Of a DNA stretch of 57,317 nt, positions 5,332 through 56,533 are shown piece after piece. Location of the stretch: positions 1 through 57,317 of the forward strand of contig NZ_CACZDK010000033.1 in NCBI RefSeq assembly GCF_902779965.1, in the 5' to 3' direction. The translations under genes and the position numbers were made by a program. This stretch comes from Fibrobacter succinogenes (GTDB taxonomy: Bacteria; Fibrobacterota; Fibrobacteria; Fibrobacterales; Fibrobacteraceae). Below the pieces are notes generated by a model, which did no database searches, was not told the origin of the DNA, and was given only the letters and a program-made list of their open reading frames with translations. The first letter of the stretch is position 1, and each line of letters starts with the position of its first letter.

Positions 5332-8300
5332 ATGAAACACTGTTGTTTGGGTATTGCCGCCTCGTTGACATTAGTGGCCTCAGCATGGGCCGATTTGACA
5401 ATTCATTTGCAGTCGCCATTCCGCAATGATGCGACGGCTTCAAGCTATACTCCGCATATTGTTGGTGGCGTAACGGATTATAATCCGGGTTTTGGCGCTA
5501 TGTCCAGAACGATGATGCAGAGCGAAGGCGACGATTGGTACGTTTATACATGGAAGGGCAAGACGATTGCCGATTTCCAGGATTGGCAGGATTTTGAATT
5601 CAAGGCGTGCCCCAATACCGACGACAATAATTACAATAACAACAATTGCGTTTCGTGGACTGGCGGCGGGAAGAACAGAATTACGTCGTTCTTTGGTACC
5701 GAAACGGAAATTTGGCTTTATACGGATGCGGCGGGCAAGTCCTATGAAAAGTCTTTCATGGCGCCGGGTTCAAAGATTGTTTGGTTCAAGAGTCCGTGGG
5801 GCAACAAGGTCTTGCCTCAGCTTATTTTTGGTACCGATTCCATATTGATGCGTTTTAACGAGGGCGACAAGGATAAGTGCGGCTGGTTCTATGGCGCACT
5901 GACACCTTCCATGATTGCGTCCAACCCGATTTCGGTGGGGTACTTTACGCGTTACAAGGCGCCATGGTACGTTGTTCCTGCAGATAGGGATTCTTTTGTT
6001 GTCTTTGGATCGCTTTTCCAAACGCAAGACACGGTTTTTGTGGATGGTACGGTTGAAAATCCTGTGGCTTCTGAAAAGATTGGGACCCCGGGCGAATGCT
6101 TTGACGCAACGAGGCGTTTGCATATTTATCACCCGTGGCGTACGAATTCGACTTATCGCGACAGTACGTTCTTTATCAAGATTGATAATAACATTTTGAA
6201 TGAACCGACGGGACTCAGCACCGAAGGCGAATACAAGTATTGGCGCCATATCGATTTTGCTGATACGCTTGTGGGGTCTTCGCAGTGGAATTCTCAGGGA
6301 ACTTTTGTGCAGATTTTACGCGGAAAGAACGATTGGCCGCAACACCCGTATTTCCCGGAAATGTCGCGCCCGCGTGCAAGTGAGCTTTTCCCGACGGGTG
6401 TTTATGAGACATGGCTTTATACCTCGACTTCGCTTGAAACGCTTGATTTGGTGTTTTATCCGCCGGAACCTAAAGTTATCCGTTTGAAGAGCCCGTGGGA
6501 AAATCAGTCGCCGTCCATGATTATTGAGTCTACGAATGATGTCATCAAGATGGGGCCTCTTGCGGATACTTGTGGCTGGTACACGGGTACGGTTTACAAG
6601 CATGCAACGGACTGGAAGGTTTACTTTAAGCAGACCTTTGGCATGGAACGCTATGGCGGCAAGGGCGTTGTCGCAGAATTGGATAACCTTGATTCCTTGA
6701 TTTCGCTGGATTCCTTGATGGCGAAGCACGATACGGTCTGGGTGTACCCCAATCCGAAACAGCGTTATGAGCCGAAAGATACGACGCGCTATCCGGGAAT
6801 TCTTGGTATTTGCCCGTCGCTCAAGATTTCGGCACTTGTTCTCGATTGGGCCGGCGAATCGCATGAGGATAGCATAGATGTTGATTTTGGCGGCATTTAT
6901 GGTGGTAACGACTACACGACTGTTGTTGGCCTCGACCAGAATGGAGAATTGACAGAATTTAAGACGTGCGGTGGCCATGTGCCAGGCATGGTGCAGGATA
7001 CGCTTGTGAATGGCGCGCCTGCGCGTGTGGATTCCCTTGTCTATCCGTGGTCGCTGTGCTCGGCGGCGCATGAAATAGAGAAGTGGTTTGTTCCGCAAGT
7101 TGTGGCGCATGATGCTGCGGGCAGGGAATACAAGAACGGCGTTTGCCGTGACATCAGCCTTTCGCTTGATGAAGAAGGCTTTTGGCAGGCCGACTTTACG
7201 AACGAAGAAGGCGACTGCAACGATACGATCAATCCGGGATTCTATCCGATTGACGACTTGGAGTATCTGGATTCTGCAAGGACTGTGCGCAACCCGAAAT
7301 TTGACTGGAATGTCCAGGGCTGCCGCCACAACTATAGCTTTGCGATGAAGGTTTCTGCGCAGTTCAGGTATGTGAAGGGGCAGTACTTTGAATTCCGTGG
7401 CGATGATGATGTGTGGGTGTTTATCAACAACCGCCTTGTTGTCGATATCGGCGGTTGCCATAGTCCTGTTGAAGGTGGCGTGAACCTGGATACAATCGGC
7501 AAGAACGATCCATCGCTCAAGTTGATTGAAGGTCGTGAATACCCGTTCCATATATTCTTCTCGGAACGCAATGCGACGGGTTCGAACTTCAAGATGCGCA
7601 CGTCGATTAACTTGCAGACGCAAAAGACGTATTACCCGGTCGAAGAAAAGACAACGGACGGAACGATTAAATACACCATTTTGCAGTTGCTGATGGATGA
7701 ATCGATCAGTTGCGATGTGTCGAGCACTTCGAAAATCGATACGATGCCTGCACAATCTTCGTTTGTGCTGTTCGGCGATGACGAGCGGATTCCGTCGGAG
7801 GGCATGGAGCTTTTGCCGGGATCTATTGCGGGTATCAATATTGATGCGAACATGGCTGGCTTTGTGATAGATACGGTGGAGATTGTGCGTAACCGTTCGT
7901 TGGCGCCGGGCTCGTACATGTTGCAGTTCTCCTTGGCTAGCGATCCGAGCCAGTCTAGCGAAGTGTTCTTTACGGTACCGGCGTACCCGCTTCCGGACAT
8001 TGCGTTTATCGACGTGTTTAGCGGTTTTGAAAAGCCTACCGCGTTTGACCCGACTGGTATTAGCTTGCGCGGCCTGACCTTTGACGGCTCCGTAAACGAT
8101 ACGCTCCTTACGCATGTGGCGTACCCCGATACGGTTCCTTTGCAAGTGGGCGTGTTTTATATCGCGAGCCTTTGCAAGGACTGCTTTGCGGCTTTGGATT
8201 TGAAGACTTCGTTCCCGATCAGTTTCTTGGACGAAAAGAAGCAGAGGGTGAACAGGTTGATTACAGATTCGACGGGTGTAGCGAAGTTCTATGTCGTTGG

Positions 8301-9612
8301 CGATTCCTCGGTGACAAACGCAAGCTTTGAAATTTCTGGAAGCGGTGTCGCAAACGTTATTACGTGGAAGAACATCCACTTCAAGGAACCGCCTGTGCCG
8401 TTTGCAAGCTTGGGCGAAGCTCACGACCGCAATGGCGATGGCGTGCTCGATAGTATTGCTGTGGTGTTCAACAAACCGTTTGGCGAGACTATCCCTGATA
8501 CGATTGCGTGGTCTTTTGGCAGTGACGATTGGCATACGGTCGCCTCTGTAGAAAATGTGACCCAGTTGATGCGTGATGAAAAGAGTTTGTCTATCTATGC
8601 GGATAGCTTGTTGGATAAAGTCTTTACGGGCGCCGCGAAGGACTCCTATCAAGGTTCCTTCAGGTATCACTATACGTACATGGACAAGGAAACGGGACAG
8701 ATGGCGCAGCTCAACTTGGATGGGCTTGCGATTGAAGACCGTATAGGTGCTATTCTTGTGGATAAGCCGATTGTGAAGCCGGTTGGTGAACGCATAAACA
8801 AGCTAACGGTGTATATCAGCGAGGCGACGCAGGTGGGAGTGCTCAATGGAACGCAGTTCTTGGAATTCAAGGACAGGACCGGAGAAATGGTGGACCCGAT
8901 GCTTCTCACGGTTATATCTATTTCACCGAATAGGAATAGCAATTATTATGATGTGCTGTTCCAGAAGAAAGATGAAAGCATGGTTCTTCCGGAAGTGGGC
9001 TTTATGGTGCGCCTGATTCCGGGTGTGTTGCCTGATTTGCAAGGGAACGTGCCGCACGTGGATAATCCGTGGCTCCGTATCGAAGGTGAACAGCGCGTTG
9101 GTGTGGAATCGCCGGGTGTTGTTGCGATTGATCCTGTAGACTGGGCTCCGGAAAAGTGGCCGCATGTTAATGATGTTGCTCCTGTCCGCGTTGACGTGAC
9201 GAAAAAGATTGATGATATCGTGGCAGAAACAGGACTCCCAGGCGAGCTGATTAAGTTTGACTTGAGCGAAGTTGGAAAGTCTTTACTGATGAATTCGAAT
9301 GGTAGCAGGGACTCTGTGCTTGCGAAAGCGAAAATCAAGTGGGAGGTGGAATACTTCTCGACGCTTGGGCAGTTTGTCAATTCGCAGAGCGGTGTCGTTG
9401 CCTGTAACGACAAGAACGTATTCGGTACGGACTGCGTGGAGAATCCGGGTAACGTGTTCTTGATGTGGGACGCTCACACAAGCAAAGGGCGCTGGGTCGG
9501 AACGGGTGTGTATATCGCGAAACTCAGGTTCAAGATTTTCCAGGATGATAAAGTTGTTGGAAAGACAGACGATACCTTTAACTTTGGCGTCCGCCGTCAC
9601 GGCAAGAAATAA
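5332..9612 (+). CDS. Fibro-slime domain surface protein, paralogue 2
   Basis: A 1,426-residue paralogue of the preceding gene, colinear over nearly its full length. It has a signal peptide (MKHCCLGIAASLTLVASAWA), the same SPWGN, HPWRT and SPWEN modules, the PA14-like motif FRGDDDVWVFINN near residue 685, NATGSNFKMRTSI, DRNGDG near 1030 and the VGTGVYIAK C-terminal module. It lacks an insertion of about 10 residues (around GDGWK) present just before the PA14-like motif in paralogue 1. ATG 5332 has GAGGG 6-10 bases upstream. It probably sits on the outer surface and binds plant polymers or matrix; that is inferred from family. Codon choice is more GC-rich than in paralogue 1, so the duplication is not recent. 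Confidence 0.9.
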   Translation: MKHCCLGIAASLTLVASAWADLTIHLQSPFRNDATASSYTPHIVGGVTDYNPGFGAMSRTMMQSEGDDWYVYTWKGKTIADFQDWQDFEFKACPNTDDNNYNNNNCVSWTGGGKNRITSFFGTETEIWLYTDAAGKSYEKSFMAPGSKIVWFKSPWGNKVLPQLIFGTDSILMRFNEGDKDKCGWFYGALTPSMIASNPISVGYFTRYKAPWYVVPADRDSFVVFGSLFQTQDTVFVDGTVENPVASEKIGTPGECFDATRRLHIYHPWRTNSTYRDSTFFIKIDNNILNEPTGLSTEGEYKYWRHIDFADTLVGSSQWNSQGTFVQILRGKNDWPQHPYFPEMSRPRASELFPTGVYETWLYTSTSLETLDLVFYPPEPKVIRLKSPWENQSPSMIIESTNDVIKMGPLADTCGWYTGTVYKHATDWKVYFKQTFGMERYGGKGVVAELDNLDSLISLDSLMAKHDTVWVYPNPKQRYEPKDTTRYPGILGICPSLKISALVLDWAGESHEDSIDVDFGGIYGGNDYTTVVGLDQNGELTEFKTCGGHVPGMVQDTLVNGAPARVDSLVYPWSLCSAAHEIEKWFVPQVVAHDAAGREYKNGVCRDISLSLDEEGFWQADFTNEEGDCNDTINPGFYPIDDLEYLDSARTVRNPKFDWNVQGCRHNYSFAMKVSAQFRYVKGQYFEFRGDDDVWVFINNRLVVDIGGCHSPVEGGVNLDTIGKNDPSLKLIEGREYPFHIFFSERNATGSNFKMRTSINLQTQKTYYPVEEKTTDGTIKYTILQLLMDESISCDVSSTSKIDTMPAQSSFVLFGDDERIPSEGMELLPGSIAGINIDANMAGFVIDTVEIVRNRSLAPGSYMLQFSLASDPSQSSEVFFTVPAYPLPDIAFIDVFSGFEKPTAFDPTGISLRGLTFDGSVNDTLLTHVAYPDTVPLQVGVFYIASLCKDCFAALDLKTSFPISFLDEKKQRVNRLITDSTGVAKFYVVGDSSVTNASFEISGSGVANVITWKNIHFKEPPVPFASLGEAHDRNGDGVLDSIAVVFNKPFGETIPDTIAWSFGSDDWHTVASVENVTQLMRDEKSLSIYADSLLDKVFTGAAKDSYQGSFRYHYTYMDKETGQMAQLNLDGLAIEDRIGAILVDKPIVKPVGERINKLTVYISEATQVGVLNGTQFLEFKDRTGEMVDPMLLTVISISPNRNSNYYDVLFQKKDESMVLPEVGFMVRLIPGVLPDLQGNVPHVDNPWLRIEGEQRVGVESPGVVAIDPVDWAPEKWPHVNDVAPVRVDVTKKIDDIVAETGLPGELIKFDLSEVGKSLLMNSNGSRDSVLAKAKIKWEVEYFSTLGQFVNSQSGVVACNDKNVFGTDCVENPGNVFLMWDAHTSKGRWVGTGVYIAKLRFKIFQDDKVVGKTDDTFNFGVRRHGKK

Positions 9613-9613
9613 A

Positions 9614-9657
9614 TGCGCCTATGGCGCAGTTGGCAGAACTTAGTTGTTAGAACTTAG
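9614..9657 (+). repeat. Mini-hairpin plus ACTTAG-tract element
   Basis: Two bases after the stop codon of fibro-slime 2 lies a perfect hairpin TGCGCC-TAT-GGCGCA (9614-9628). It is followed by GTTGGCAGAACTTAG and a second degenerate copy of AGAACTTAG. The same hairpin-plus-word layout recurs after other genes in the window. Confidence 0.7.
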
Positions 9658-9694
9658 AAAAAGTATATAAACGTTTTATCAACAGTTCGGGAAT

Positions 9695-20403: not shown

Positions 20404-20811
20404 ATGCAAGAAACGGCAAACATACTCAAAGATCATGGCATCAGGCCTTCGTTGCAGAGGGTCTGTGTCTATCGCTATTTGCGTGGCGTCAAGACGCACC
20501 CGACTGTCGATGAAATTTATTCGGCGCTTTTGCCGGAATACCCGTCGCTTTCACGCACGACAGTTTACAACACGCTTGAGCTGTTGATAACAAACGATTT
20601 GGCAATTTCGCTGGATTTTGGCGACGGCTTTTTGCGCTACGATGCAGATTGCACGCCGCATAGCCATTTCAAGTGCAAAGGTTGCGGTCGCGTTTACGAT
20701 GTGTTCGTGGCACCGCCGGATTGTTCGCAAATGATTCCTGCGGGATTTACTTTGATGGGGACTTCGCTTTACATGTTCGGGCTTTGTGACAAGTGCTCGG
20801 GTAAAAATTAA
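20404..20811 (+). CDS. Fur/PerR family transcriptional regulator
   Basis: A 135-residue metal-dependent repressor. A winged-helix domain (residues about 1-80, with RPSLQRVCVYRYL and SLSRTTVYNTLELL) is followed by a dimerisation and metal domain with the signature HSHFKCKGCG and a C-terminal LCDKC. The two CxxC pairs form the structural zinc site of PerR/Fur-like proteins. ATG 20404 is preferred over GTG 20398, with AAGAGGG upstream. Its position after a reverse rubrerythrin gene with a PerR-type box favours PerR over Fur. The stop overlaps the end of the opposing TrkA-like gene by 4 bases. Confidence 0.88.
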   Translation: MQETANILKDHGIRPSLQRVCVYRYLRGVKTHPTVDEIYSALLPEYPSLSRTTVYNTLELLITNDLAISLDFGDGFLRYDADCTPHSHFKCKGCGRVYDVFVAPPDCSQMIPAGFTLMGTSLYMFGLCDKCSGKN

Positions 20812-21467
20812 TCTTTCAACTTATCGAGCGCTTCGTTCGGTCCGATGAGGAATAGCACGTCGTCTTCTTGCAAGATGACGTCCGCAATGTTACCGATTTT
20901 AGGTGTGGGTTCTTGTGGATCGCGGATGGCAATAACTTGTACGCCGTACTTGTGCGTGAGTGACAGCGCTTTCAAAGTTTTTCCGATAAAAATCTTGGGG
21001 CAGACGAGTTCCACGATGGAGTAGCCTTCCATGAACGGGAGGAAGTCCACCATGTTCGGGCGGTTCAGGCGTTCGGCAAGGCTGATGGCGGCATCGCGTT
21101 CCGGGTGGAAAATATCCGTGACGCCGAGCTTTTCCAAAATGCTTGTGTGCGCGGCACTGCTCGACTTGGCGATAATGTGCTTGACTCCGAGTTCCTTCAG
21201 GTTGAGGATGGTGAGGAGCGAGGCTTCGAGATCCTGGCCAATGCAGACGATAACGCTATCGGCCTTGGTCAGCGACGGGATGGAGGCAAGCTGCTTTTTG
21301 CGCGTGCTGTCTGCAACAACGGCTTGCGAGACCATGCTAGAAATGTCCTGGATTTTTTCGGGATGCGAGTCGATGACCATGACGTCATGACCGAGCGAGG
21401 TCAAATGACGCGCAAGGTAGTTTGCCGAATTTCCAAGACCGATAATAACGAATTGTCTAGAAGCCAT
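20808..21467 (-). CDS. TrkA/KtrA-type potassium channel regulator
   Basis: A 219-residue cytosolic gating subunit of a potassium uptake system. An N-terminal RCK-N Rossmann domain (FVIIGLGNSANYLARHL, then VMVIDSHPEKI with the acidic residue after strand 2) binds nucleotide. A C-terminal RCK-C domain begins near residue 145 (IVELVCPKIFIGKTL). The single-RCK size matches KtrA more than the double-length E. coli TrkA. The partner membrane subunit is encoded immediately upstream on the same strand (21601-23004), with a repeat-filled gap between them. A TATATTTT box lies 4 bases before the ATG. Confidence 0.92.
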   Translation of the reverse strand: MASRQFVIIGLGNSANYLARHLTSLGHDVMVIDSHPEKIQDISSMVSQAVVADSTRKKQLASIPSLTKADSVIVCIGQDLEASLLTILNLKELGVKHIIAKSSSAAHTSILEKLGVTDIFHPERDAAISLAERLNRPNMVDFLPFMEGYSIVELVCPKIFIGKTLKALSLTHKYGVQVIAIRDPQEPTPKIGNIADVILQEDDVLFLIGPNEALDKLKD

Positions 21468-21476
21468 GGGTAAAAT

Positions 21477-21600
21477 ATAGAACTTAGTATTTAGAACTTA
21501 GAACTTAGTGTTTAGAAATTAGAGTGAAAAAAAACGGATTTGATGTGCTTTATCTAAGTTCTGCCGACTAAGTTCTGCCAACTGCGCCCGATAGGGCGCG
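21477..21600. repeat. AACTTAG-word tracts and mini-hairpin between the two potassium-transport genes
   Basis: On the plus strand, AGAACTTAG-type words repeat from 21479 to 21524. From 21554 the reverse-oriented words TAAGTTCTGCC and ACTAAGTTCTGCC follow, ending in a perfect hairpin GCGCCC-GATA-GGGCGC (21584-21599) that touches the stop codon of the TrkH/KtrB gene. Read on the minus strand this is stop, hairpin, CAGTTGGCAGAACTTAG, as after fibro-slime 2. Confidence 0.7.
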
Positions 21601-30874: not shown

Positions 30875-30914
30875 GCGCCAGAGCGCGCAGTTACTAGTCG
30901 ATAGTTACTAGAGT
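30875..30914 (+). repeat. Mini-hairpin plus TTACTAG tract
   Basis: GCGC-CAGA-GCGC (30875-30886) begins at the base after the stop codon. It is followed by AGTTACTAGTCGATAGTTAC and TAGAG. It is nearly identical in its word part to the tract after the nitroreductase gene (48798-48842). Confidence 0.65.
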
Positions 30915-33200: not shown

Positions 33201-33226
33201 GGCCCGAAGGGCCCCCTGTCTACTGC
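33201..33226. repeat. Mini-hairpin and CTACTGCCTAC words at the end of ackA
   Basis: GGCCC-GAA-GGGCC (33201-33213) is followed on the plus strand by CCCTGTCTACTGCCTACTTC, which runs into the ackA stop codon. This is another copy of the hairpin-plus-word layout. Confidence 0.55.
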
Positions 33227-34408
33227 CTACTTCACAAGTGCTTCGGTGTCGAGAGCGATAAGCAATTCTTCGTTTGTTGCGACGACGATTGCCTTCGGCG
33301 TGCCATCCTTCGTGATGAGGTGGTTGGATTCCTTGCCACTCTTGAGGTTGCGTTCTTCATCAACTTGGTAGCCAAGGAGCTTGAGGTTGTCGAGAGCCTG
33401 CTTGCGAACGTAGAAACTGTTTTCGCCGATGCCGCCCGTGAAAACGATAGCGTCGATGCGCGGGAGAGCCATGGCAAGACCACCGATTTCACGAGTGAGG
33501 CGGTAGCAGAAAACGTCGAGAGCGATTTGGGCGCGCTTGTTGCCTTCGCTTGCGGCCTGCGTGAGCGTGCGCATGTCGTTCGAGAGGCCGGAGAGGCCGA
33601 GCAAGCCGGATTCCTTGTTCACGAGGTGATCGAGCTTGTCGATGGTGCCGTATTCTTCGCCGTACTTCTTTGCGATGTAGAAGAGGATGGCCGGGTCGAG
33701 GCTACCGGAGCGGGTGCCCATGATAAGGCCTTCGAGCGGGGTGAAGCCCATCGTGGTATCGACGCACTGGCCGTTCAAGATGGCGGAGCAGCTGGAGCCG
33801 TTGCCGAGGTGAGCCGTGATGAGGCAAGTTTCTTCGGGCTTGGTGCCGAGAACCTTGCAAGCTTCGGCAGTCACAAAGCGGTGGCTTGTGCCGTGAGCAC
33901 CGTAACGACGGATGCCGTCTTTTTCGTAGAACTTGTACGGGATACCGTAGAGGTAAGCCTTCTGCGGCATAGTCTGGTGGAAAGCTGTATCGAACACAGC
34001 GACTTGCGGGAGGCCCGGGAAGAACTTGGTAGCGCATTCCATGCCGGTAGCGTGTGCCGGTTCGTGGAGCGGTGCAAACAGCGTGATGCTGCGGATGTAG
34101 TCGATAACTTCTTGAGAGACCTTTTCGCTCTTGATATATTTACCGCCATGCACGACGCGGTGGCCGATAGCTTCGATTGTAGAGGTGAGCTTCTGTGCAT
34201 CGAGGAACTTCTTGACCTGATCGACGGCTTCGGCATGCGTGGGGCAATCGAAGTTGAAGTCGATGTTGCCTTCGGGGCCCTTTGCTTTAGTGTGACCGTT
34301 GACGCCGATGTTTTCAACGAGTCCGCTTGCAATGGACTGCTTGGTCTGTGTGTCGATGACGGCGAACTTCACCGAGGATGAGCCGCAATTAAGAACGAGT
34401 ACGCGCAT
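33227..34408 (-). CDS. ackA: Acetate kinase
   Basis: A 393-residue enzyme that makes ATP and acetate from acetyl phosphate, important for energy yield in a fermentative anaerobe. Family signatures: VLVLNCGSSSVKF at the N terminus, GHRVVHGGKY near 105, AHLGNGSS near 200, TRSGSLDPAI near 235 and FTGGIGENS near 325. Length is typical. The usual partner pta is not adjacent. Acetate is a known fermentation product of Fibrobacter. The ATG at 34408 has no obvious Shine-Dalgarno; the upstream region holds repeat tracts. Confidence 0.97.
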   Translation of the reverse strand: MRVLVLNCGSSSVKFAVIDTQTKQSIASGLVENIGVNGHTKAKGPEGNIDFNFDCPTHAEAVDQVKKFLDAQKLTSTIEAIGHRVVHGGKYIKSEKVSQEVIDYIRSITLFAPLHEPAHATGMECATKFFPGLPQVAVFDTAFHQTMPQKAYLYGIPYKFYEKDGIRRYGAHGTSHRFVTAEACKVLGTKPEETCLITAHLGNGSSCSAILNGQCVDTTMGFTPLEGLIMGTRSGSLDPAILFYIAKKYGEEYGTIDKLDHLVNKESGLLGLSGLSNDMRTLTQAASEGNKRAQIALDVFCYRLTREIGGLAMALPRIDAIVFTGGIGENSFYVRKQALDNLKLLGYQVDEERNLKSGKESNHLITKDGTPKAIVVATNEELLIALDTEALVK

Positions 34409-34415
34409 GTTTTTA

Positions 34416-34462
34416 TCAGTGGTTAGTGGTTAGTGTTTAGTAGGCAGTAGACAGTAGGAAGG
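34416..34462. repeat. GTTAGTG-word tract upstream of ackA
   Basis: Repeated words CAGTGGTTAGTGGTTAGTG, TTTAGTAGGCAGTAGACAG and TAGGAAGG. It is the reverse complement of the CACTAACCACT and CTACTGCC vocabulary seen elsewhere. Confidence 0.6.
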
Positions 34463-34507: not shown

Positions 34508-34584
34508 GTCATTCTGAGGCGTAGCCGAAGAATCCAGTTGTTTCTTGATAATTCTCTGGATCCTTCACTGTCGTTCAGGATGAC
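34508..34584. repeat. GTCATTCTGA...TTCAGGATGAC palindromic element
   Basis: Ends GTCATTCTGA and TCAGGATGAC are near-complementary. Inside, GAATCCAG and CTGGATCC form a second arm. It is the clearest member of a dispersed family with relatives at about 14151, 24588-24625, 35256-35340, 42627-42657 and 55955-56020. Confidence 0.7.
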
Positions 34585-34679
34585 GAAGTGCGGAATGGAC
34601 CTAATACTTGCCACCTGTTTTTTCAAATAATAGGAATTTTGACGCGGAGTTGCGAGTGGAAAATTCTAAATTGACGTTG

Positions 34680-35225: not shown

Positions 35226-35368
35226 TTCTTCTAAGTTCTGCCAACTAAAATTTCACTGGATCCTGCTCCTTCGAACCTAAGAATTGTAGGGTAATAAATT
35301 ACCAACAATTCTATATCAGCCCTACAGGCTTCAGGATGACGTCCCTAAGTTCTGCCAACTAATACCCT
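35226..35368. repeat. Repeat-filled gap: TAAGTTCTGCCAACT words and a GTCAT-type element
   Basis: TAAGTTCTGCCAACTA occurs at 35233 and again at 35345. Between them, CTGGATCC (35256) to AGGATGAC (35333-35340) is a GTCAT-type element. It contains a long hairpin: AGAATTGT with ACAATTCT and GGTAAT with ATTACC (35280-35312). Confidence 0.65.
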
Positions 35369-36387: not shown

Positions 36388-36515
36388 CGTAAATGGGTAG
36401 TTGTTAAGGTTGCTTCGCAACAGCTCCGAGTTACTAGTAACTAAGTCCTAATAACTAGCCCGTAGGGCGAAGTAACTATTAACTAGTAACTGTGCCGAAG
36501 GCACTTAGTAACTAA
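36381..36515. repeat. Array of three hairpin-plus-TAACT modules
   Basis: Perfect mini-hairpins GTTGC-TTC-GCAAC (36409-36421), GCCC-GTA-GGGC (36458-36468) and GTGCC-GAA-GGCAC (36492-36504) alternate with tracts of TTACTAGTAACTAAG and AAGTAACTATTAACTAGTAA words. CCCAT/ATGGG (36381-36397) may be a fourth hairpin, at the stop codon. Confidence 0.75.
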
Positions 36516-42784: not shown

Positions 42785-44566
42785 ATGATGAGAGTGTCTA
42801 AGGCTGCATTTGCGTTGCTCTTTTCGCTGTTGTTTTTGATGGCATGTTCTGATAACGGTAATGATGGTGGAGAAATCCTTGCCCGTTACGATGAAAATGG
42901 AGTCCAGTATTCCCCGACGGAAATAGATGGCATTGTGGGGTATATGCCTTCGATGAAGGCGGAGTCTGTCAGGATTGTAGTTGTCGATGCATCGCTAAAT
43001 CCGGTGGATTCTTTTGAGGTGCCGATAGATTCGCTGGATTGGAATTCTACTGGATTCAAGGTGGGCTCACGTGACTACGAATACCCGTATGTGAAACTCG
43101 TGACGATTTTCCCGCTAGGAAAAAACGGGAAAATGGAGTTTCCGCAGTATTTGAACTTGCAAAGGTATAACTCGAATATCTTTTTGCAGTTCTATGGCGC
43201 CTTGATTTCTGGACGTGTTGAAACACTAGTCCGTAATAAGGGCCTTTGCCTGCGTGATGCGAAAGAACAGGCTTACAAGGAACTCAACAATGCATTGGGA
43301 GAATCTATTGGAAGTCCTGAAAGTAGGGCTTTTTACGACCGCGATGATTATGGAAAACAGGGACTTTTTGACCTATGGGGTTACATCCTTTGCAGGCATG
43401 AAATCTCGGATAGCTTGTTCTATAGCGACTTCAAGGAACTGCGTGATTCCTTTGCTAAGGATGGGACGGTTAGCGCTTCGATAAAGGTGCGAGCGGCCGA
43501 TGCCTGGCTTTCGACTTTTAAGATTTCGTCGGATTCTATGGAGCGTGAACTTTTTAAAAGTTCAAGTCGCGATACGTTTTCAGTTCTGAAACGTTTGGAT
43601 ACGGCCTTCTTTAAATGGGCATATGGGTTTGATGCTGCCTGGAAAGATTCCGTCAAGATTGAAAATGAACATAGCGAATACAATGGACGTATGTTTGTCT
43701 ATGAGGAAAGATGCAACTTGAGTTCTTGCGGATGGCGCCTGAAGGCCCCGCTTGAAGAAAAGATTGGTGCCTGTCTGTATTTCAGGAGTCGTTATGCGGA
43801 ACTTGATGGGGTCTTTTATTTATGCCGCGATGAATCGTTTGTGTGGGAACCTGTAAGCGATGTGGATACCATTTTGAGCTACAAGTACATCAGGTGTGAG
43901 GGAAAATCTTATGGCGATTATGGCGAAATAGGTTTCTATAAAGATAATATGTATGTTTGCGATTGTGAATCTGCGAACAAGTGCAATTGGACCGAAGTCA
44001 AAAAGGACTTTAAGGCAACCGTGCTGGATACGCCGACGGTCAGTGTCTTGGCTACACAGCTTTATGGCGAATGCAGGGGACATGATGGCGAAAAGCATGT
44101 GATGGATAGTATTCTAGTGCGTTGTCACTGGTCAAAGTGGCTTAAAGTCGATACGCTCTCATACTACATGGGAATTTGCAAAAATAGTTCCAATAGGGAT
44201 GAATTTGGCCAGATGGAAAATGGTGATTACTATAAGTGCAGGGCTTATGGCGGAGAGAAGTGGGAACGGTGCACGTATGCCGATGTAAAAGGGGACTTGT
44301 GCAACTGGGTGACTGCCGATATCTATAAAAAATATGATGACAAGTATTTCCATTGTAAAAATGAAAAATGGAACGAGGTCTCAGAAGAGGACGTTTATGC
44401 GCCTGTCGTGAAGGGCGACTCCTGCACTTCCAAAAACGAAAAGGAAATAAAGAAGTACGGTGAAGAATTCTTTGTTTGCCGTAGGATTGTTACGGAAGGT
44501 AAGGAACTGTATTACTGGCAAATTGCAAATGAGTCGGATCTGGAACTTTATAAGGACGAAAACTAG
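42785..44566 (+). CDS. Cys-module lipoprotein, tandem paralogue 1
   Basis: 593 residues, first of three tandem paralogues. The lipoprotein signal (KAAFALLFSLLFLMAC) is followed by SDNGNDGGEILARYDENG, a beta-rich domain (about 35-120: GVQYSPTEIDGIVGYMPSM, KMEFPQYLNLQ) and a helical domain (about 130-290: CRHEISDSLFY, ADAWLSTF). The C-terminal 270 residues are about six modules, each with two cysteines 20-25 residues apart and an aromatic end (patterns like KGDxC, then KYDDKYFHC, then KWNEV). I do not know the family; a surface location and disulphide-bonded modules are inferred. AGGGAGAA precedes ATGATG at 42785. The next gene begins 9 bp after the stop. Confidence 0.75.
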   Translation: MMRVSKAAFALLFSLLFLMACSDNGNDGGEILARYDENGVQYSPTEIDGIVGYMPSMKAESVRIVVVDASLNPVDSFEVPIDSLDWNSTGFKVGSRDYEYPYVKLVTIFPLGKNGKMEFPQYLNLQRYNSNIFLQFYGALISGRVETLVRNKGLCLRDAKEQAYKELNNALGESIGSPESRAFYDRDDYGKQGLFDLWGYILCRHEISDSLFYSDFKELRDSFAKDGTVSASIKVRAADAWLSTFKISSDSMERELFKSSSRDTFSVLKRLDTAFFKWAYGFDAAWKDSVKIENEHSEYNGRMFVYEERCNLSSCGWRLKAPLEEKIGACLYFRSRYAELDGVFYLCRDESFVWEPVSDVDTILSYKYIRCEGKSYGDYGEIGFYKDNMYVCDCESANKCNWTEVKKDFKATVLDTPTVSVLATQLYGECRGHDGEKHVMDSILVRCHWSKWLKVDTLSYYMGICKNSSNRDEFGQMENGDYYKCRAYGGEKWERCTYADVKGDLCNWVTADIYKKYDDKYFHCKNEKWNEVSEEDVYAPVVKGDSCTSKNEKEIKKYGEEFFVCRRIVTEGKELYYWQIANESDLELYKDEN

Positions 44567-44575
44567 AGGTTTGTG

Positions 44576-45979
44576 ATGAACTTTGTAAAAGCGTCTTTGC
44601 TGTTTCTTGTTTTGGGGGTGGTCGCATGCTCTAGCATTGATGGCGATGACGAAGTCATTGCTCGCTACGATGATGGCGTCCAGTATTCCCCCACGTTTTT
44701 GCGTGGAACGGTCAAATACCTGAAAGACCTGAAACCGGAAAAGGTCAAGATTGTAAGCGTTGATGCAAAGCTCAATCCTATCGATTCTATTGAAGTGCCG
44801 GTTGAAAAGAATGATGACGGGGAGTATGCCTTTAAGGTGGATGATCGTGATTATGAATTCCCGTTTGTAAAGATTGTGCCGGTGTTCCCGCTGGATAAAA
44901 ATGCAAAGATGGAATTCGCGCAGTATGTGCGCTTGAGAGAATACAATATTGACATCGCGCTGAATCTCCCAGAGGCGGTGATGTCTGGGCGTATTGAAAC
45001 GTTGATGCGTGAAAAGGAACTGGATTTCGACTCGGCGCGGGCGCGGGCGATTTATGAAATGCGTCAATCGTTTAATACGATGTCCGATGTCATGTCTTAT
45101 GAAATGTATGTCTATGAGTATATTGCAAACGAGGCTAGGCTTAACGGGCTCTTGATGTACATTTATTGCCGCCATGAAATTTCGGATAGCGTTTTCTATA
45201 GCACGTTCAAGGAATATCGTGAAAAGTTTGCCAAGTCGGGAATTGCGGACTCCGCTTTGCTTGTAAAGTCTGCGGATGCGTGGCTTTCGACTTTTGAAGT
45301 TTTTGACGATATGGATGGGCATACTCAATTTAAAAGTTTGTCGAGGGATTCTGTCTTTGGGGTGAGCTGCTGTGATTATAACCTTCTTAGGCGTGCCTAT
45401 GGAGCTCCTGTGCAGTTGACCACGGAGGTCTGGGAAACGGGTTCAGAAATATATTCCCGTATTGAAAACAAGTCTAGCTTGTATTATGGACGTACCTTTG
45501 TCTATGATAAGGCTCTTGGCTTTTGGCGCCTGCAAACATTGCTAGAAGATTCAATTGGAATTTGTTTGTATGGAAAGGATTCTGCTGCTGTGAGCAATGG
45601 CGCTTATTATCGCTGCAGGCTTGGCTCTGCGGTGTGGAATGTAGAATCTAATCGTGATACTATTTTGAATAAAATGTATGGATATTGTAGGGGGCGGTCT
45701 ATATCCGATGGTGAATCGGGTTGTTTAGGAGATTCTCTATTTGTTTGCGAATGTGATAGCTCGAATAAGTGTGACTGGACGGACAAGTATGTAAATACGG
45801 TGTTCCAGAAAGGTGATAAGCTGTATAACTCAGTGTTGAATGCAAAAGCGGTTCGAGAATTTGGGAAGTGTTCGAGTGAGCATGACGGCGAAGTAAAAAA
45901 GCTCGATAGCGTATCTGTGAGTTGCAAATGGTATGCGGGCTCGTATGCGAATAAATGGCGTTTAGTCGAGGGCGAATAG
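44576..45979 (+). CDS. Cys-module lipoprotein, tandem paralogue 2 (shortest)
   Basis: 467 residues. ATG 44576 is preferred to GTG 44573; AGAGGT lies upstream. Lipobox VVAC is followed by SSIDGDDEVIARYDDGVQYS, the same beta-rich start as its neighbours. The helical domain again has CRHEISDSVFY and ADAWLSTFE. Only about three two-Cys modules remain at the C terminus (IGICLYGKDSAA, FVCECDSSNKCDW, GKCSSEHDGE), so the protein is shorter by module loss rather than truncation of the core. A CC pair near residue 263 (GVSCCDYN) is not in the other two. It is translationally close to both neighbours. Confidence 0.75.
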   Translation: MNFVKASLLFLVLGVVACSSIDGDDEVIARYDDGVQYSPTFLRGTVKYLKDLKPEKVKIVSVDAKLNPIDSIEVPVEKNDDGEYAFKVDDRDYEFPFVKIVPVFPLDKNAKMEFAQYVRLREYNIDIALNLPEAVMSGRIETLMREKELDFDSARARAIYEMRQSFNTMSDVMSYEMYVYEYIANEARLNGLLMYIYCRHEISDSVFYSTFKEYREKFAKSGIADSALLVKSADAWLSTFEVFDDMDGHTQFKSLSRDSVFGVSCCDYNLLRRAYGAPVQLTTEVWETGSEIYSRIENKSSLYYGRTFVYDKALGFWRLQTLLEDSIGICLYGKDSAAVSNGAYYRCRLGSAVWNVESNRDTILNKMYGYCRGRSISDGESGCLGDSLFVCECDSSNKCDWTDKYVNTVFQKGDKLYNSVLNAKAVREFGKCSSEHDGEVKKLDSVSVSCKWYAGSYANKWRLVEGE

Positions 45980-45984
45980 GCGGT

Positions 45985-48192
45985 ATGATGAATTTTAAAA
46001 GTTTTGTTTTGACGATGTTTGCGGCTTTGTGTTTTGCCGCTTGTTCTGATAATGATGAAGGTGGTGTCATTGCCCGTTTTGACGAAACCGGATATCAGTA
46101 TTCGCCACACTCGATAAGTGTTGTTGTCGAGTATTTGCCGACGATGAAGCCTTCGGCGGTTCGTGTTGAGGTTGTCGATGAGCAACTGAATGCCGTGGAT
46201 ACGATTGAGCTGTCGAAGGATTCTACGGATTGGAAGGGGAACCGTTTTTCTATGAGTTCTCAGGAAATTGAATATCCACTTTTGAGGATTGTAACGGAGT
46301 TCCCGTATGGTGAAAAATCTAAGATGGAATTTTCGCAGTATTACCGTTTAGGGACGTCGCGTTATAACGAAAATAGTCAAAATATTTTTATGGCACTTGC
46401 GGCTTCGCGCATTGAACATTTTGTAAAGAAGGAAGGCTACAGTTTTGCAGATGCCGAGGATTCGGTGTTGAACGAGATGTCGAAAAGATTTGGCCTCAGC
46501 GCGTATACAATCAAGACCTATGAATTCCCTTCTTACAACATTGGATTTGATGATTTGCTTATATATGTTCTTTGTCGTCACGAGATTTCAGATAGCCTGT
46601 TCTATAACGACTTTAAGAAGTTGCGCGAATACTATGGCGAGAAGAGCTTAGTGGATTCGGCGATGGCTATTACAGCTGCTGATGCGTGGCTTTCGACTTT
46701 TGAAAATGTTCCTGATACAGGTTCGCACGAGACTGTATTTCGAAGTATTTCGAGGGATACAGCCGTGGGCTTGAAGAATATGCAGAAGGACTTTTTTAGC
46801 CAAGTTTATGAAATAAAATTCACGACGAAAGATTCTGTGAGAATCGAAAAAAAGTCTAGTAAGTTTTATGGGGAATGCTTTTATTATGACCGTGATGGCT
46901 ATAGCGAGTATGATGCACAATGGAGATTAAAAAATCCCATCGAAGATACTATTGGACTGTGCCTGCGTATGACAAAGTCTCTTGCCGTGTATAAGGATAG
47001 TGAATATTTATGCGAAAATGGCTCGAACATTTGGAAAAAGAATGTGCACCATGATGAACTGCTGTATAGCTATTATGGATCTTGTGTGAGTTCCAAGAAT
47101 GGCGAAGCTGTTTTTGCGAGGGATTCGTTGTTTATTTGCGAATGCGACAAATCGAATAATTGCGCCTGGAACGATAAGTACGCCGGCAAAGAAGTCTCTC
47201 GAAAAGATTCTGCGATTTTTGCAAAATATATCGAAGCGAAAGCGGTCGAAAAATTTGGAGGGTGCTATACCAATGGTTATGGCGCTACGAAAAAGCTGGA
47301 TGAATTATATGTGCAGTGCATTAATTCAAAATGGCTTGAGGTGGATTCGTTGACGTATCATATCGGCCACTGTGCAAAGGATAATGTGAGAGGGAAGTAC
47401 CTCGGGATTTATTATGGGTGCCGTAATTTTGCTGATTACGGTGCTGGCGATACCGTGTGGGCTGAAATCCCTTGGCCTGTCTATGCGGGAGAACCGTGCA
47501 CTGCCAAGACGCTAAAAAAAGTATCTAGAGATAGTGCGAATTATTTTATTTGTGAAAAGAGTGATGAGAAAAAGGACGATTCCAGCGCGGTGTACAAATG
47601 GCGCAAGCTTGATAGTGCAGAAGTGATTCCTCCTGTGATTAACATGGATACGTGTGAAAATGTTTTCACCTATAACTATCTGAAAAAAGTTTACGATGGC
47701 GAATTTTACATGTGCGAGGATGGCGAATGGCATTCTGTAGACAAGGAAAAACTTACGCCTCCAGAAAAGGCTGGGGATATTTGTACCTGGGAGTTGCTTA
47801 ATACCGTAAAAGGGTACGACGGGAAATACTATCAATGCACGGCGTTGAACATGTGGTTTGCTGTAGATTCTGTAACGTCAGTCGGCTATGCGTATCGCGA
47901 TAGCATTGGTAGTTGCGATACTCTTTCGAATGAAACCTTGCATTGGAACGAGAAAACCTCGGCGCTTTGGGGGTGTGTCAAGGATGGAGACGGATTGCGT
48001 TGGGGAATGGTTAAATTGAAAGAAACGGAAAAGTGTTCGTTGCCGGACCCTCTAGACTTGAGCCGTTTTGCTGGGGGAACGCTTAATAGCCCCTATAATT
48101 ATTCTGTGGATCTTGATGGGACTGTTTATAACTTTGTGCCGTCTTTAAGTGGTGAATGGATTTTGAAAAGCATAGAAAAGCCAGAAGAATAA
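45985..48192 (+). CDS. Cys-module lipoprotein, tandem paralogue 3 (longest)
   Basis: 735 residues. ATG 45985 (or the adjacent ATG 45988), with TAGGCGG upstream, begins the lipoprotein signal KSFVLTMFAALCFAAC; the frame extends to 45955 inside the previous gene but lacks a leader there. It has the same core as its neighbours (ARFDETGYQYSP, CRHEISDSLFYND, ADAWLSTFEN). The C-terminal 400 residues hold at least eight two-Cys modules, the clearest being KKVYDGEFYMCEDGEWHSVD and VKGYDGKYYQCTALNMWFAVD. The array is the longest of the three. It is the last gene of the operon; no terminator is obvious before the nitroreductase gene 16 bp on. Confidence 0.75.
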   Translation: MMNFKSFVLTMFAALCFAACSDNDEGGVIARFDETGYQYSPHSISVVVEYLPTMKPSAVRVEVVDEQLNAVDTIELSKDSTDWKGNRFSMSSQEIEYPLLRIVTEFPYGEKSKMEFSQYYRLGTSRYNENSQNIFMALAASRIEHFVKKEGYSFADAEDSVLNEMSKRFGLSAYTIKTYEFPSYNIGFDDLLIYVLCRHEISDSLFYNDFKKLREYYGEKSLVDSAMAITAADAWLSTFENVPDTGSHETVFRSISRDTAVGLKNMQKDFFSQVYEIKFTTKDSVRIEKKSSKFYGECFYYDRDGYSEYDAQWRLKNPIEDTIGLCLRMTKSLAVYKDSEYLCENGSNIWKKNVHHDELLYSYYGSCVSSKNGEAVFARDSLFICECDKSNNCAWNDKYAGKEVSRKDSAIFAKYIEAKAVEKFGGCYTNGYGATKKLDELYVQCINSKWLEVDSLTYHIGHCAKDNVRGKYLGIYYGCRNFADYGAGDTVWAEIPWPVYAGEPCTAKTLKKVSRDSANYFICEKSDEKKDDSSAVYKWRKLDSAEVIPPVINMDTCENVFTYNYLKKVYDGEFYMCEDGEWHSVDKEKLTPPEKAGDICTWELLNTVKGYDGKYYQCTALNMWFAVDSVTSVGYAYRDSIGSCDTLSNETLHWNEKTSALWGCVKDGDGLRWGMVKLKETEKCSLPDPLDLSRFAGGTLNSPYNYSVDLDGTVYNFVPSLSGEWILKSIEKPEE

Positions 48193-48207: not shown

Positions 48208-48798
48208 ATGAATACACTGGAAAATATCAAGACGCGTCGCAGTACGCGGAAGTTCAAGGCTCAGCCTGTTGAAATCGAAAAATTGCAAGCCATTGTCGAA
48301 GCAGGGCAGTTCGGCCCGACCGGCGGAAATTGCCAAACGAACCACTTCTTTGTGATTTCGGATGCGGCGGTGATTGCAAAGCTCAAGGAACTTGTGCAGT
48401 CCGCATTTGCTGCGATGGAACTTCGTGATGACCTTTACAAGAGCCTCAAGAATTCCATCACGCTTTCGCGCAAGGGCAATTATTCTTTCTGCTACACGGC
48501 GCCTGTGCTTATCGTCGTTGCGAACAAGAAGGAATACGGTAACAATATGGCCGATGTCGCCTGCGCTGTCGAAAACATGATGCTTGCCGCAAATGAACTC
48601 GACCTCGGCAGTTGCTATATCAATCAGCTCAAGTGGCTGAACGAAGACCCGACGCTTCTCTCATACTTGCGCGGCCTCGGCCTTAAGGAAGATGAACGCG
48701 TTTACGCCTCTGTTGCAATTGGCTATGCTGATACGGAATCGGGACTCCCGAACCGTACGGAAACGCCTCGCGTCGGTAACGAAGTCGAGTGGGTGTAG
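48208..48798 (+). CDS. Nitroreductase family protein
   Basis: A 196-residue FMN-dependent oxidoreductase. Family motifs: TRRSTRKFKAQPVE at the N terminus (FMN phosphate contacts RRSxRxF), GQFGPTGGNCQTNHFFVIS near 35, and the late LGSCYINQLKW region near 135 followed by SVAIGYAD near 172. Physiological substrates of such enzymes are varied (quinones, nitro compounds, flavins) and cannot be assigned. A TACATTTA box lies 4 bases before the ATG. A mini-hairpin begins at the last base of the stop codon. Confidence 0.9.
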   Translation: MNTLENIKTRRSTRKFKAQPVEIEKLQAIVEAGQFGPTGGNCQTNHFFVISDAAVIAKLKELVQSAFAAMELRDDLYKSLKNSITLSRKGNYSFCYTAPVLIVVANKKEYGNNMADVACAVENMMLAANELDLGSCYINQLKWLNEDPTLLSYLRGLGLKEDERVYASVAIGYADTESGLPNRTETPRVGNEVEWV

Positions 48799-48842
48799 CG
48801 GCTATGCCGCAGTTACTAGATACTAGTCAATAGTTACTAGAG
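48798..48842 (+). repeat. Mini-hairpin plus TTACTAG tract after the nitroreductase gene
   Basis: GCGGC-TAT-GCCGC (48798-48810) uses the G of the TAG stop as its first base. AGTTACTAGATACTAGTCAA and TAGTTACTAGAG follow. This nearly matches the tract at 30887-30914. Further on, ATACCTCA words at about 48901 and 48932 flank GCC-GAA-GGC. Confidence 0.7.
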
Positions 48843-48958
48843 ATTATCGATTTAACTTTTTTCTATCTTTACACCGCCTTGGTGATTCTTGGTGTTTTCT
48901 ATACCTCAAAGGATGCCGAAGGCGGCCGACCTCATACCTCATAGCTTGCGGGTACATT

Positions 48959-49638: not shown

Positions 49639-49779
49639 AGGGGCGTTATGGATTTTTTGTCAATAAAAGGAATTTTACATATATAAATCCTCCTCTCTTT
49701 TTGATTTAGTTTAAAAAATAGCCTCCTTAAAGGCTAATGGATGGGTTGTAAGGTTTTTGAAAAAATGAGGAGTACAAAG

Positions 49780-51078
49780 ATGAAATCAAAAATCTTAAAA
49801 ACGATGGTGTTGGTGAGCTCACTGGCATTCTTCAATTGCGGAGATGAATCAGTCTCATCTGCTATTTCCAATTATGGAGAACTTTCGTCTAGTTCTGGTG
49901 AAGTCCAGCTGGGCGATGGGGCCTCTTCTAGCTCTGCGGAACAAGCTGGTCAGCAACAGGGCGAAATCTCTGGAGTTTCGTCCAGTTCTACGGGGACGGC
50001 TGAAACGCTTAGCTCTAGCAGTGTTGATGAAAGTTGCTTGGCTTCTAGCTTGCCTGATGCTTGCGGCTCGGGCTCGAATCCGACATCTAGCAGCGATGTT
50101 GCACCGGGCTCCAGTGCTGACGTTCAGGATCCTGCATCCAGCGCCGATGTGCAAAATCCGGCCTCTAGCTCTGATAAGGCTCCTGTCGTAAGTTCCAGCT
50201 CCGAGAAGGCTCTGGCATCATCTAGCTCTGCAAAGGTGGAAAGCTCCAGCTCCGAAAAGAAGGTAGAATCTAGTTCTAGTGCCGAAGCCCCGAAGGGCAT
50301 TTTCCTTGCTAGCGGTAAGGAAGAAGAAAAGGACCAGATGCAAGTGGAATACAAGACTCGCACCGGCTGGGATGGCGGTGGAATCCTCTCGTATCCGAAG
50401 CAGCTTTCTTCGACGCAGAAGCACGGTGTCGTGGTTTGGGGACCGGGCGGCGGTACCGAACCGGGCGCATACGAAGGCATGATCCGTCGCTTGGCTTCTC
50501 ATGGCTTTGTGGTAATCGCCCTCAAGGAATCTCCGGGTGATGCTTCTCAGGCTATCAAGGCCTTGGATTGGCTCGACAAGCAGAACAAGGATCAGAATAG
50601 CCCGCTGTTTGGCAAGCTCGACATGAATGTTGTCGGTTGCTCCGGCCACTCCATGGGCGGTCTCGAATCTGAACAGGCTGTTATCAAGGACAAGCGCGTG
50701 CTTACGGCGTTCCTCAACAACAGTGGTGACTGGAATGGTGCAGGTGCCAACAAGGTCGCAACGGACAGAACGATTGCAATTCTTTTCGGTGAAGTCGGTA
50801 TGGAAAAGGACAACGCCAAGAACGACTACAACAACGCTGGCGTGAAGGCTCCGGCTTGCCTCATCGAAATGACGGGTGGCCCGCGTAACTCCGAAGGCGG
50901 TTACGGTCACGGTTCCGGCTCTTGGGACGGCATGGCTGCAACTGTTGCATGGATGCGTTGGCATCTCGGTGGCGAAACGGAACGCAAGACTGATTTCGTC
51001 GGCAGCAGTGGCAAGTACATTGACGGCTCCATTATTGGCAAGCAGGGTAAATGGAAAACCCAGTGCAAGAACTTCTAA
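49780..51078 (+). CDS. Alpha/beta-hydrolase lipoprotein with poly-Ser linker, paralogue 1
   Basis: 432 residues. ATG 49780 (AGGAG upstream) begins lipoprotein signal MKSKILKTMVLVSSLAFFNC. A Ser/Ala/Glu linker of about 150 residues (blocks of SSSS, ASSADVQ, KVESSSSEKK) separates the anchor from the enzyme. The catalytic domain (about residues 175-430) has VVVWGPGGGTEPGAY (oxyanion-type loop), the nucleophile elbow GCSGHSMGG and a candidate catalytic His in GYGHGSGSW. It resembles dienelactone-hydrolase, chlorophyllase or PETase-like esterases. Release of acetyl or aromatic esters from plant polymers is plausible but inferred. A paralogue follows. Confidence 0.85.
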   Translation: MKSKILKTMVLVSSLAFFNCGDESVSSAISNYGELSSSSGEVQLGDGASSSSAEQAGQQQGEISGVSSSSTGTAETLSSSSVDESCLASSLPDACGSGSNPTSSSDVAPGSSADVQDPASSADVQNPASSSDKAPVVSSSSEKALASSSSAKVESSSSEKKVESSSSAEAPKGIFLASGKEEEKDQMQVEYKTRTGWDGGGILSYPKQLSSTQKHGVVVWGPGGGTEPGAYEGMIRRLASHGFVVIALKESPGDASQAIKALDWLDKQNKDQNSPLFGKLDMNVVGCSGHSMGGLESEQAVIKDKRVLTAFLNNSGDWNGAGANKVATDRTIAILFGEVGMEKDNAKNDYNNAGVKAPACLIEMTGGPRNSEGGYGHGSGSWDGMAATVAWMRWHLGGETERKTDFVGSSGKYIDGSIIGKQGKWKTQCKNF

Positions 51079-55886: not shown

Positions 55887-55896
55887 AACTTGGCTC

Positions 55897-56093
55897 GGTC
55901 GCCATTAGGCGACCTCTTAGAGCTTAGAACTTAGTAGAGTCTTCCTTTCCTTTGTTGTCATTCTCGACCCTGTCATCCTCGGAGCTTGTCATTCTCGACC
56001 GAAGGGAGGGAAACCATCATTTCTCGTATCTACGTTTGGGAGGGTATCCATTATTTCATAAAATCAAAAGGTGGCTTCAGGCCACCTTTTTTG
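55897..56093. repeat. Repeat cluster downstream of glgA, ending in a terminator
   Basis: Hairpin GGTCGCC-ATTA-GGCGACC (55897-55914) and AGAGCTTAGAACTTAGTAG words come first. Then TTGTCATTCTCGACC occurs twice (55955-55969 and 55986-56000). A terminator-like stem GGTGGC-TTCAG-GCCACC followed by TTTTTT lies at about 56068-56093. Confidence 0.65.
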
Positions 56094-56533
56094 CGTTCTC
56101 ACATCGTGTGCATAAAATACAAGCGTATTCAGAACTGTATGGATCTCCTAGTGGAGGATGACGGCTCCGAGGATGCTTTCACTTCATACATCTATGGGAT
56201 GGCTTGCTTCCCCTCTACGAGGGTCGCAATGACGTAAACACTGTTTACTAACCACTGTTTACTGCCAACTTCCTACTTCCTACCGCCTACTTCCCACTGC
56301 CCACGATCTTCTCCACAATAGCGCCGGTGGTGAGGAGTTTTGGCAGTACAATTTGTTTATACATAAAATCTTGATTTTATTTGTGTAAATTTATATATTA
56401 AAAGACAATTTATTACAATAGATGACGATAATAATAATTCTTCAAAAGGAATTCTTGGCCCAATTATGATAACAAAAAATGCAATATTGGAGTATTGTTT
56501 TGAAAGAAATTATAAATTGGATGGGGATGTAAA
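56094..56533. other. Gene-free stretch with repeat words
   Basis: No convincing coding region. A GGATGACGG / GAGGATG segment at about 56143-56180 resembles the GTCAT-type repeats. From about 56238 a CT-rich tract (ACTGTTTACTAACCACTG, CTTCCTACTTCCTACCGCC, CTACTTCCCACTGCCCAC) repeats CCTACT and CCACT words. The remainder is AT-rich and is probably the promoter of the following lipoprotein gene. Confidence 0.5.

Follow-up and report, generated by a model that had tools for sequence, protein, structure and literature searches.

What are the perfect short hairpins that stand at stop codons in this stretch of Fibrobacter succinogenes DNA, each adjoining a tract of ACTTAG- and TTACTAG-like words? 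The stretch, here called the window (57,317 nt), is contig C33 of a draft genome (G000, 4.09 Mb). A preliminary description had read hairpin and words as a dispersed 3'-UTR element with covarying stems, either a repeat family or a structure serving mRNA stability or termination. The sequence base for our analysis was approximately 0.86 Mb of G000, together with 0.8 Mb from G004 and another 0.8 Mb from G064. All genomes used are drafts, and a single genus (Fibrobacter) was examined in depth. The hairpins named earlier at 9614, 21584, 30875, 48798 and 55897 are all present as described, and lie among the following features of the window.

9614-9628, + strand: mini-hairpin TGCGCC-TAT-GGCGCA, one base past the TAA (9610-9612) of the gene at 5332-9612.
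9628-9657, + strand: AG-heptad array AGTTGGC AGAACTT AGTTGTT AGAACTT AG.
21479-21524, + strand: left arm of the AGAACTT class; a TrkA-domain gene (20808-21467, - strand) has its start codon 11 bp away.
21554-21583, - strand: right arm of the AGAACTT class (AGTTGGC AGAACTT AGTCGGC AGAACTT AG), facing the left arm.
21584-21599, - strand: mini-hairpin GCGCCC-TATC-GGGCGC (GCGCCC-GATA-GGGCGC in + reading), located at the stop codon of TrkH and directly abutting the right arm.
30875-30911, + strand: hairpin GCGC-CAGA-GCGC (start approximate, about 30875), then AGTTACT AGTCGAT AGTTACT AG, directly past the TAA of the cadherin-like gene (which ends at 30874).
33201-33233, - strand: words AGTAGGC AGTAGAC AG that lead into hairpin GGCCC-GAA-GGGCC (33201-33213); ORF 33227-34408 ends close by, as read from the sequence.
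34418-34459, + strand: arm of the AGTGGTT/AGTAGG class, adjoining the start of ORF 33227-34408 (- strand).
35231-35359, - strand: AGAACTT/AGTTGGC words in two blocks around a GGATCC...GGATGACG repeat, in the spacer 35226-35368.
36429-36513, no strand assigned: AGTTACT-class words in either orientation, among which lie two mini-hairpins (GCCC-GTA-GGGC and GTGCC-GAA-GGCAC).
48798-48810, + strand: mini-hairpin GCGGC-TAT-GCCGC; the nitroreductase stop, TAG, contributes its last base as the opening G.
48811-48840, + strand: array AGTTACT AGATACT AGTCAAT AGTTACT AG.
48902-48945, - strand: GAGGTAT-class arm with a CCGCCTTCGGC hairpin, ahead of the next start codon.
55887-55936, + strand: hairpin GGTCGCC-ATTA-GGCGACC (55897-55914) with TAGAACTTGG on its 5' side and TCTTAGAGCTTAGAACTTAG on its 3' side, behind the glycosyltransferase (glgA-like) gene.
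56243-56294, - strand: AGTAGG-class arm at the opposite end of the spacer 55887-56533.

The TrkH, cadherin-like and nitroreductase gene identities were confirmed by Pfam, and the gene behind the 55897-55914 hairpin scores as a GT4/glycogen-synthase-like glycosyltransferase. A scan of the window against Rfam 15 returned nothing above gathering score except 5S rRNA, whose gene lies at 1-88 with its 5' end cut by the window edge. Folded as a single copy, 9600-9665 was not exceptionally stable (z -0.1), a consequence of the hairpin's very small size. The two facing arms at 21479-21524 and 21554-21583 together fold as a long stem (z -5.2). The window also carries tandem paralogous genes at 49741-51078 and 51335-52540, with stretches 77-80% identical, and three more related genes in a row at 42785-48192.

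ACTTAG, TTACTAG and CTACTGCC all belong to tandem arrays of degenerate heptads of the form AG-N5, for example AGAACTT, AGTTGGC, AGTTACT and AGTAGGC. The preliminary description had missed this strict 7-bp periodicity anchored on AG, together with the mirrored 5' arrays and the occurrence of hairpins in other fixed contexts. Across 457 kb with our own gene calls, 60 kb of spacer held 87 chains of at least four AGs at period 7, compared to 0-4 at any other spacing from 4 to 12; coding sequence in the same 457 kb showed no comparable period-7 AG excess. The genome contains 41 AGAACTTAG pairs, with 0 in the reversed control. Arrays are mosaics sharing mainly the AG, as in the single run AGTAGGA AGTAGAC AGTGGTT AGTAAAC, and GAGGTAT and AGACGAA represent further classes outside the AG reading phase. 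The word classes were made by hand and picked post hoc, with orientation and class matching checked against reversed reading and shuffles. Heptad arrays frame spacers in the window's genome and in many, not all, relatives, with 3 to 1024 array chains per genome within the genus; among titled public contigs, many of the pattern matches come from Fibrobacter. Other families of the phylum (G040, G044, G063, G076, G084) have their own heptad vocabulary per lineage (GGAGTTT, AGCTATG, AGGCTTC, AGCGCGC). Genome G065 gave very high counts for pattern and control both.

Association with stop codons was assessed at 771 gene ends using order-2 Markov simulations. Stop codon, GC hairpin and AG heptads stood in exact register at 14 of these ends (simulated mean 0.015, maximum 1), and AG chains of at least four at period 7 within 80 nt 3' of stops numbered 77 against 0.54 simulated. 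Hairpin matches ended exactly at the first AG in 11 cases among 162 arrays, with 0-3 at any other position. The 3' order of stop, hairpin and array recurs in many genes, often without a spare base, and the G of a TAG stop often doubles as the first stem base. Genes with a 3' arm use a TAG stop in 59% of cases and those without in 26%, indicating that the arm often supplies the stop codon. Arms were found at 90 of 473 3' ends (19%) and at 62 of 585 5' ends (11%), our own gene calls being approximate and start codons in particular possibly misplaced. The enrichment directly 3' of stop codons anticipated by the preliminary description was therefore recovered; its designation as specifically a 3'-UTR element was not, since mirror arms occur at 5' ends. 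A cassette supplying stops in all frames was considered and rejected: AG words often carry TAG or TAA, the AGACGAA class none. Selection for extra stops is unsupported in eubacteria according to the title of PMC6764699.

The short GC hairpins are 11-17 nt long with a loop usually of 3-4 nt, and their stems are largely free in sequence yet complementary. They occupy the arm's outer tip against the stop codon, the inside of the arm, or the centre. Hairpins of the same kind appear in other fixed settings, namely GAGGTC-hairpin-TTTGAGGT, TATAATC-hairpin-CTAACT (at many loci and in many genomes), GTCAT-hairpin-ATCCA and GAAAGAAC-hairpin-TACAGACGA. The suggestion of a dispersed compound element and repeat family is supported. 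In G004:C1 573597-573796, L282 and L286, 40-60 bp of other sequence lies inside the loop of a small hairpin with both stem halves intact, a nested insertion.

Spacer layout was counted in 1.66 Mb from two species (G000 and G004). At spacer ends, 152 arms read outward from the gene and 9 read the opposite way. Words at both ends were present in 35 spacers (10.7-10.9 expected), 22 of which shared one class between the arms; shuffling gave 8.4, and 0 of 20,000 shuffles reached 22. The same class was shared by only 2 of 9 pairs of arms flanking one gene and by only 2 of 7 pairs of adjacent spacers. Class sharing within the spacer, and not across the gene or adjacent spacers, identifies the spacer as the unit. 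A gene-cassette model, with a gene and its own two flanks as the unit, was rejected for lack of class sharing across the gene. Predicted duplex energies were about -32 to -35 kcal/mol for same-class arms versus -21 for different classes, and a spacer's own arms paired no better than same-class arms from other spacers. The two arms of a spacer are therefore not copies of each other, and a model in which one arm arises as a local copy of its partner was discarded on the same evidence. Nor is the layout a general bacterial law, with a head-to-head bias of 19:1 loci in Fibrobacter versus 11:8 in other phyla.

Single arms are also common, for example at 9614. Mirrored arms are also found at start-codon and promoter ends, and several of these lie upstream of the promoter. 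A promoter-like word, TATCTTTG (Bacteroidetes-type TAnnTTTG), was seen a few bases 5' of start codons in many spacers (e.g. window 48861-48868, L174, L175, L177); heptad arms lie either between this word and the start codon or on its upstream side. A separate dispersed repeat family, CTGGATCC...GGATGACG / GTCATTCTGA...GAATCCAG, is often found mid-spacer between heptad arms (window 34514-34585, 35255-35340 and many others).

Stem covariation was measured on hairpins retrieved by their flanks only, using GAAAGAAC and TACAGACGA with 9-17 free bases between them and no pairing required. This flank pair was found in 44 of 61 Fibrobacter genomes, with none in the reversed control. Within the alignment, confined to 51 distinct 13-nt inserts, 97.3% of cells were paired (66.7% shuffled) and 66 cells carried two-sided changes (19.4 shuffled). 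The covariation score was 0.691 compared to 0.149 shuffled and at most 0.081 with the partner slid, so the covariation claimed from six copies in the window is real. Only the flanks and the outer and closing pairs are fixed, leaving the inner three stem pairs free. Nine stem cells were non-Watson-Crick, 2 of them G-U (G-T), and in these small numbers there was no sign of RNA wobble selection. A minority of inserts between GAAAGAAC and TACAGACGA are GCTCGC-NN-GCTCGC direct repeats and not palindromes (e.g. G008:C12:121911, G004:C2:434145).

Orthologous hairpins of G000 and G064 had a changed loop in 5 of 6 cases and a changed stem in 1 of 6, a small and selected sample that included the 9614 copy and excluded terminator-like hairpins (e.g. 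W 5223, changed). The sole stem change was a compensatory double, GTGCC-TAC-GGCAC to GCGCC-TTC-GGCGC. At the nitroreductase site the stem is likewise kept in the G004 ortholog, where the loop is TTT. Stem decay was also encountered, with GGCG against GTCG in L264/L266 and CAGTTTCGCCGC against CGGCTTCGCCGC.

These orthologous stems, conserved while their loops drift, would be expected if hairpin and arms functioned at the RNA level, so that the upstream mRNA is protected or terminated at its stop codon, with same-class arms pairing in a register-tolerant manner. The exact stop-codon position and the favourable pairing of same-class arms are consistent with such RNA punctuation. We nevertheless consider it unlikely. 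Mirrored arms exist at 5' ends, several of them lying upstream of promoters; AG words, and not the U-tract of an intrinsic terminator, follow the hairpins; and G-U is not favoured among the non-Watson-Crick cells. Own arms show no pairing advantage over same-class arms of other spacers, and many orthologs have no element. The first three of these observations leave the proposed role in mRNA stability or termination unsupported.

Turnover at orthologous sites is extensive. The KtrA/TrkH spacer (window 21468-21600) measures 16-20 bp in G089, G014, G048, G160 and G129 (L267, L269, L271, L273, L288). In many other genomes it holds unlike, mostly two-armed inserts of AGAACTT, AGTTACT, AGTAGG, GTGTGAA, AATTCGG or AGAGGCT words, with arms typically facing and, in several, a hairpin at the TrkH stop. 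Another Fibrobacter succinogenes contig (L118) has the same TrkH hairpin and array as the window. The 9614 hairpin and its array were present in three species (G000, G001 and G064) and in no other relative in the ortholog comparison: the empty site reads TAA|CCACAACTTATCAAC, the filled site has 60-odd bp, and about 50 bp of this are identical across the three genomes although the aligned query is only 77-78% identical. Presence and absence at these two sites vary between species. No target-site duplication was evident at either empty site (KtrA/TrkH, 9614), and at both a few bases are replaced, not simply interrupted. The element 3' of the nitroreductase gene is shared with G004 only. Two orthologs of window 9610-9640, L296 and L297, carry another kind of repeat (TGGATCC...AGGATGAC...) directly after the same TAA stop; the final ATAA of this repeat, where the old sequence resumes, resembles a short target duplication at a stop codon.

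We consider the best explanation, at about even confidence, to be a multi-class family of DNA insertion elements located between genes and built from heptad arms and mini-hairpins. The hairpin and word tract would form the gene-proximal end of a dispersed intergenic element, which in full would comprise two facing arms of one word class (AGTAGGA, AGAACTT, AGTTACT, GAGGTAT, AGACGAA and others) between two genes. Such elements are probably mobile. Insertion of a unit is suggested by the class-matched two-armed inserts in an otherwise 20 bp spacer, and growth by slippage by the heptad composition of the arms; the palindromes hint that a cruciform or a folded single strand is what is recognised. 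In this model, the elements may spread as DNA, with the hairpin serving as a recognition structure in single-stranded or cruciform form; the arms may lengthen and shuffle by slippage; and elements may persist where least harmful, between stop codon and promoter. One locus is not explained by a single two-armed insertion: relative to its G004 ortholog, G000 C4 112782-113003 has kept a central terminator-like palindrome (GAGAGCTTTTTAAGCTCTC) while both arms differ in class, AGTAGG in G000 and GAGGTAT in G004.

A purely mutational origin, combining heptad slippage with quasipalindrome correction by template switching in neutral spacers, would dispense with a mobile unit altogether. It presumes that seven is a favoured slippage length, and heptads do occur in unrelated phyla. 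PMC4679880 describes heptanucleotide repeats as common in bacteria and, citing Mrazek 2007, as outnumbering other long simple repeats in most prokaryotic genomes, with slippage proposed. Palindromes kept in both stem arms fit template switching as well. We give this account limited credence: it does not yield the 152:9 outward orientation or class sharing per spacer, nor does it give fixed junctions of the TATAATC-hairpin-CTAACT kind or orthologous sites at which the entire spacer differs.

Structure might also be copied rather than sequence, a new stem and its exact complement arising by fold-back synthesis while the flanks are copied. The inner pairs are near saturation between loci and almost frozen at orthologous sites, which suggests such copying, as slow compensatory drift would not readily give both; we rate it as distinctly improbable all the same.

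REPINs, in which a REP-associated tyrosine transposase mobilises inverted doublets, would account for the inverted pairing, the extragenic location and hairpins with compensatory changes (PMC3116915). G000 lacks RAYT (Y1_Tnp), as do 41 of 61 genomes and, specifically, the array-rich G006, G008 and G064, and the arms are degenerate heptads where a conserved 16-mer would be expected. This origin is largely refuted for G000 unless a RAYT gene lies in unassembled sequence, and we regard it as very unlikely. Reverse transcriptase (RVT_1), the other mobiliser candidate, occurs in 17 of 61 genomes, and its distribution does not evidently follow array load. The arrays might alternatively bind a nucleoid or regulatory protein that reads AG every 7 bp. 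This idea is favoured by the strict phase and by Geobacter metallireducens, where paired inverted heptamer/octamer arrays have been put forward as sites for a global regulator (PMC2700814), but it is scarcely credible given at least five unlike word classes with one layout, a load of 3 to 1024 inside one genus and the lack of a candidate protein.

The preliminary description knew of no account of such an element, but heptad arrays and heptad-embedded hairpins have both been described in other bacteria. In Nostoc, Elhai and colleagues (Genome Research, 2008; cited in PMC3116915) are said to have described SDR4/5/6 as tiny hairpins with compensatory changes, often within tandem heptamers; these repeats, in sequence families of 21-27 nt, are reportedly thought mobile, with nested insertions. 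The Fibrobacter hairpins likewise show compensatory changes and sit in tandem heptamers. Unlike the cyanobacterial SDRs, those of Fibrobacter (Fibrobacterota) have sequence-free stems without recognisable consensus and are tied to stop codons and mirrored arms. Similarity to REPINs and MITEs lies in the inverted paired ends, extragenic location and presence or absence at orthologous sites; the differences are the absence of RAYT from the window's genome, of a fixed terminal sequence, and of target-site duplication at the two sites compared.

Tandem 7-bp intergenic units are shared with STRR/LSSR repeats, whose near-identical units within each array were not found in Fibrobacter. According to the available portion of PMC4679880, the STRR/LSSR and TAACTGA repeats of Beggiatoaceae are similarly 7-bp spacer units split by related 7-bp words, and TAACTGA lies just upstream of start codons (MacGregor 2015), sharing its outward sense with the Fibrobacter 5' arms (complement AGTTATC-type). 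As described there, TAACTGA differs in being one word class mostly at start codons, and the hairpin tip and paired arms of Fibrobacter are not among its reported features. Class 3 sites of Geobacter metallireducens, five tandem heptanucleotides (MTYCTGA) drawn as inverted pairs, resemble the Fibrobacter arms; in the accessible text of PMC2700814 they form one class of proposed regulator binding sites, with no flush hairpin described.

The elements are thus best read as a putative Fibrobacter variant of the heptamer-embedded small dispersed repeats known from cyanobacteria, with a likeness to MITEs/REPINs. What began as an unusual combination of hairpins and words becomes a measurable rule of spacer architecture across the genus, with mirrored, class-matched arms whose hairpin tips dock on stops. 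If mobile, the elements would be among the smallest known mobile DNAs, without a known transposase, replacing DNA between genes and often supplying the stop codon itself. The fast turnover of orthologous spacers makes the search for their generator testable by comparing very high- and very low-load genomes. The spacer rule also brings the reports of cyanobacterial STRR/SDR repeats and of Beggiatoa TAACTGA into a shared framework.
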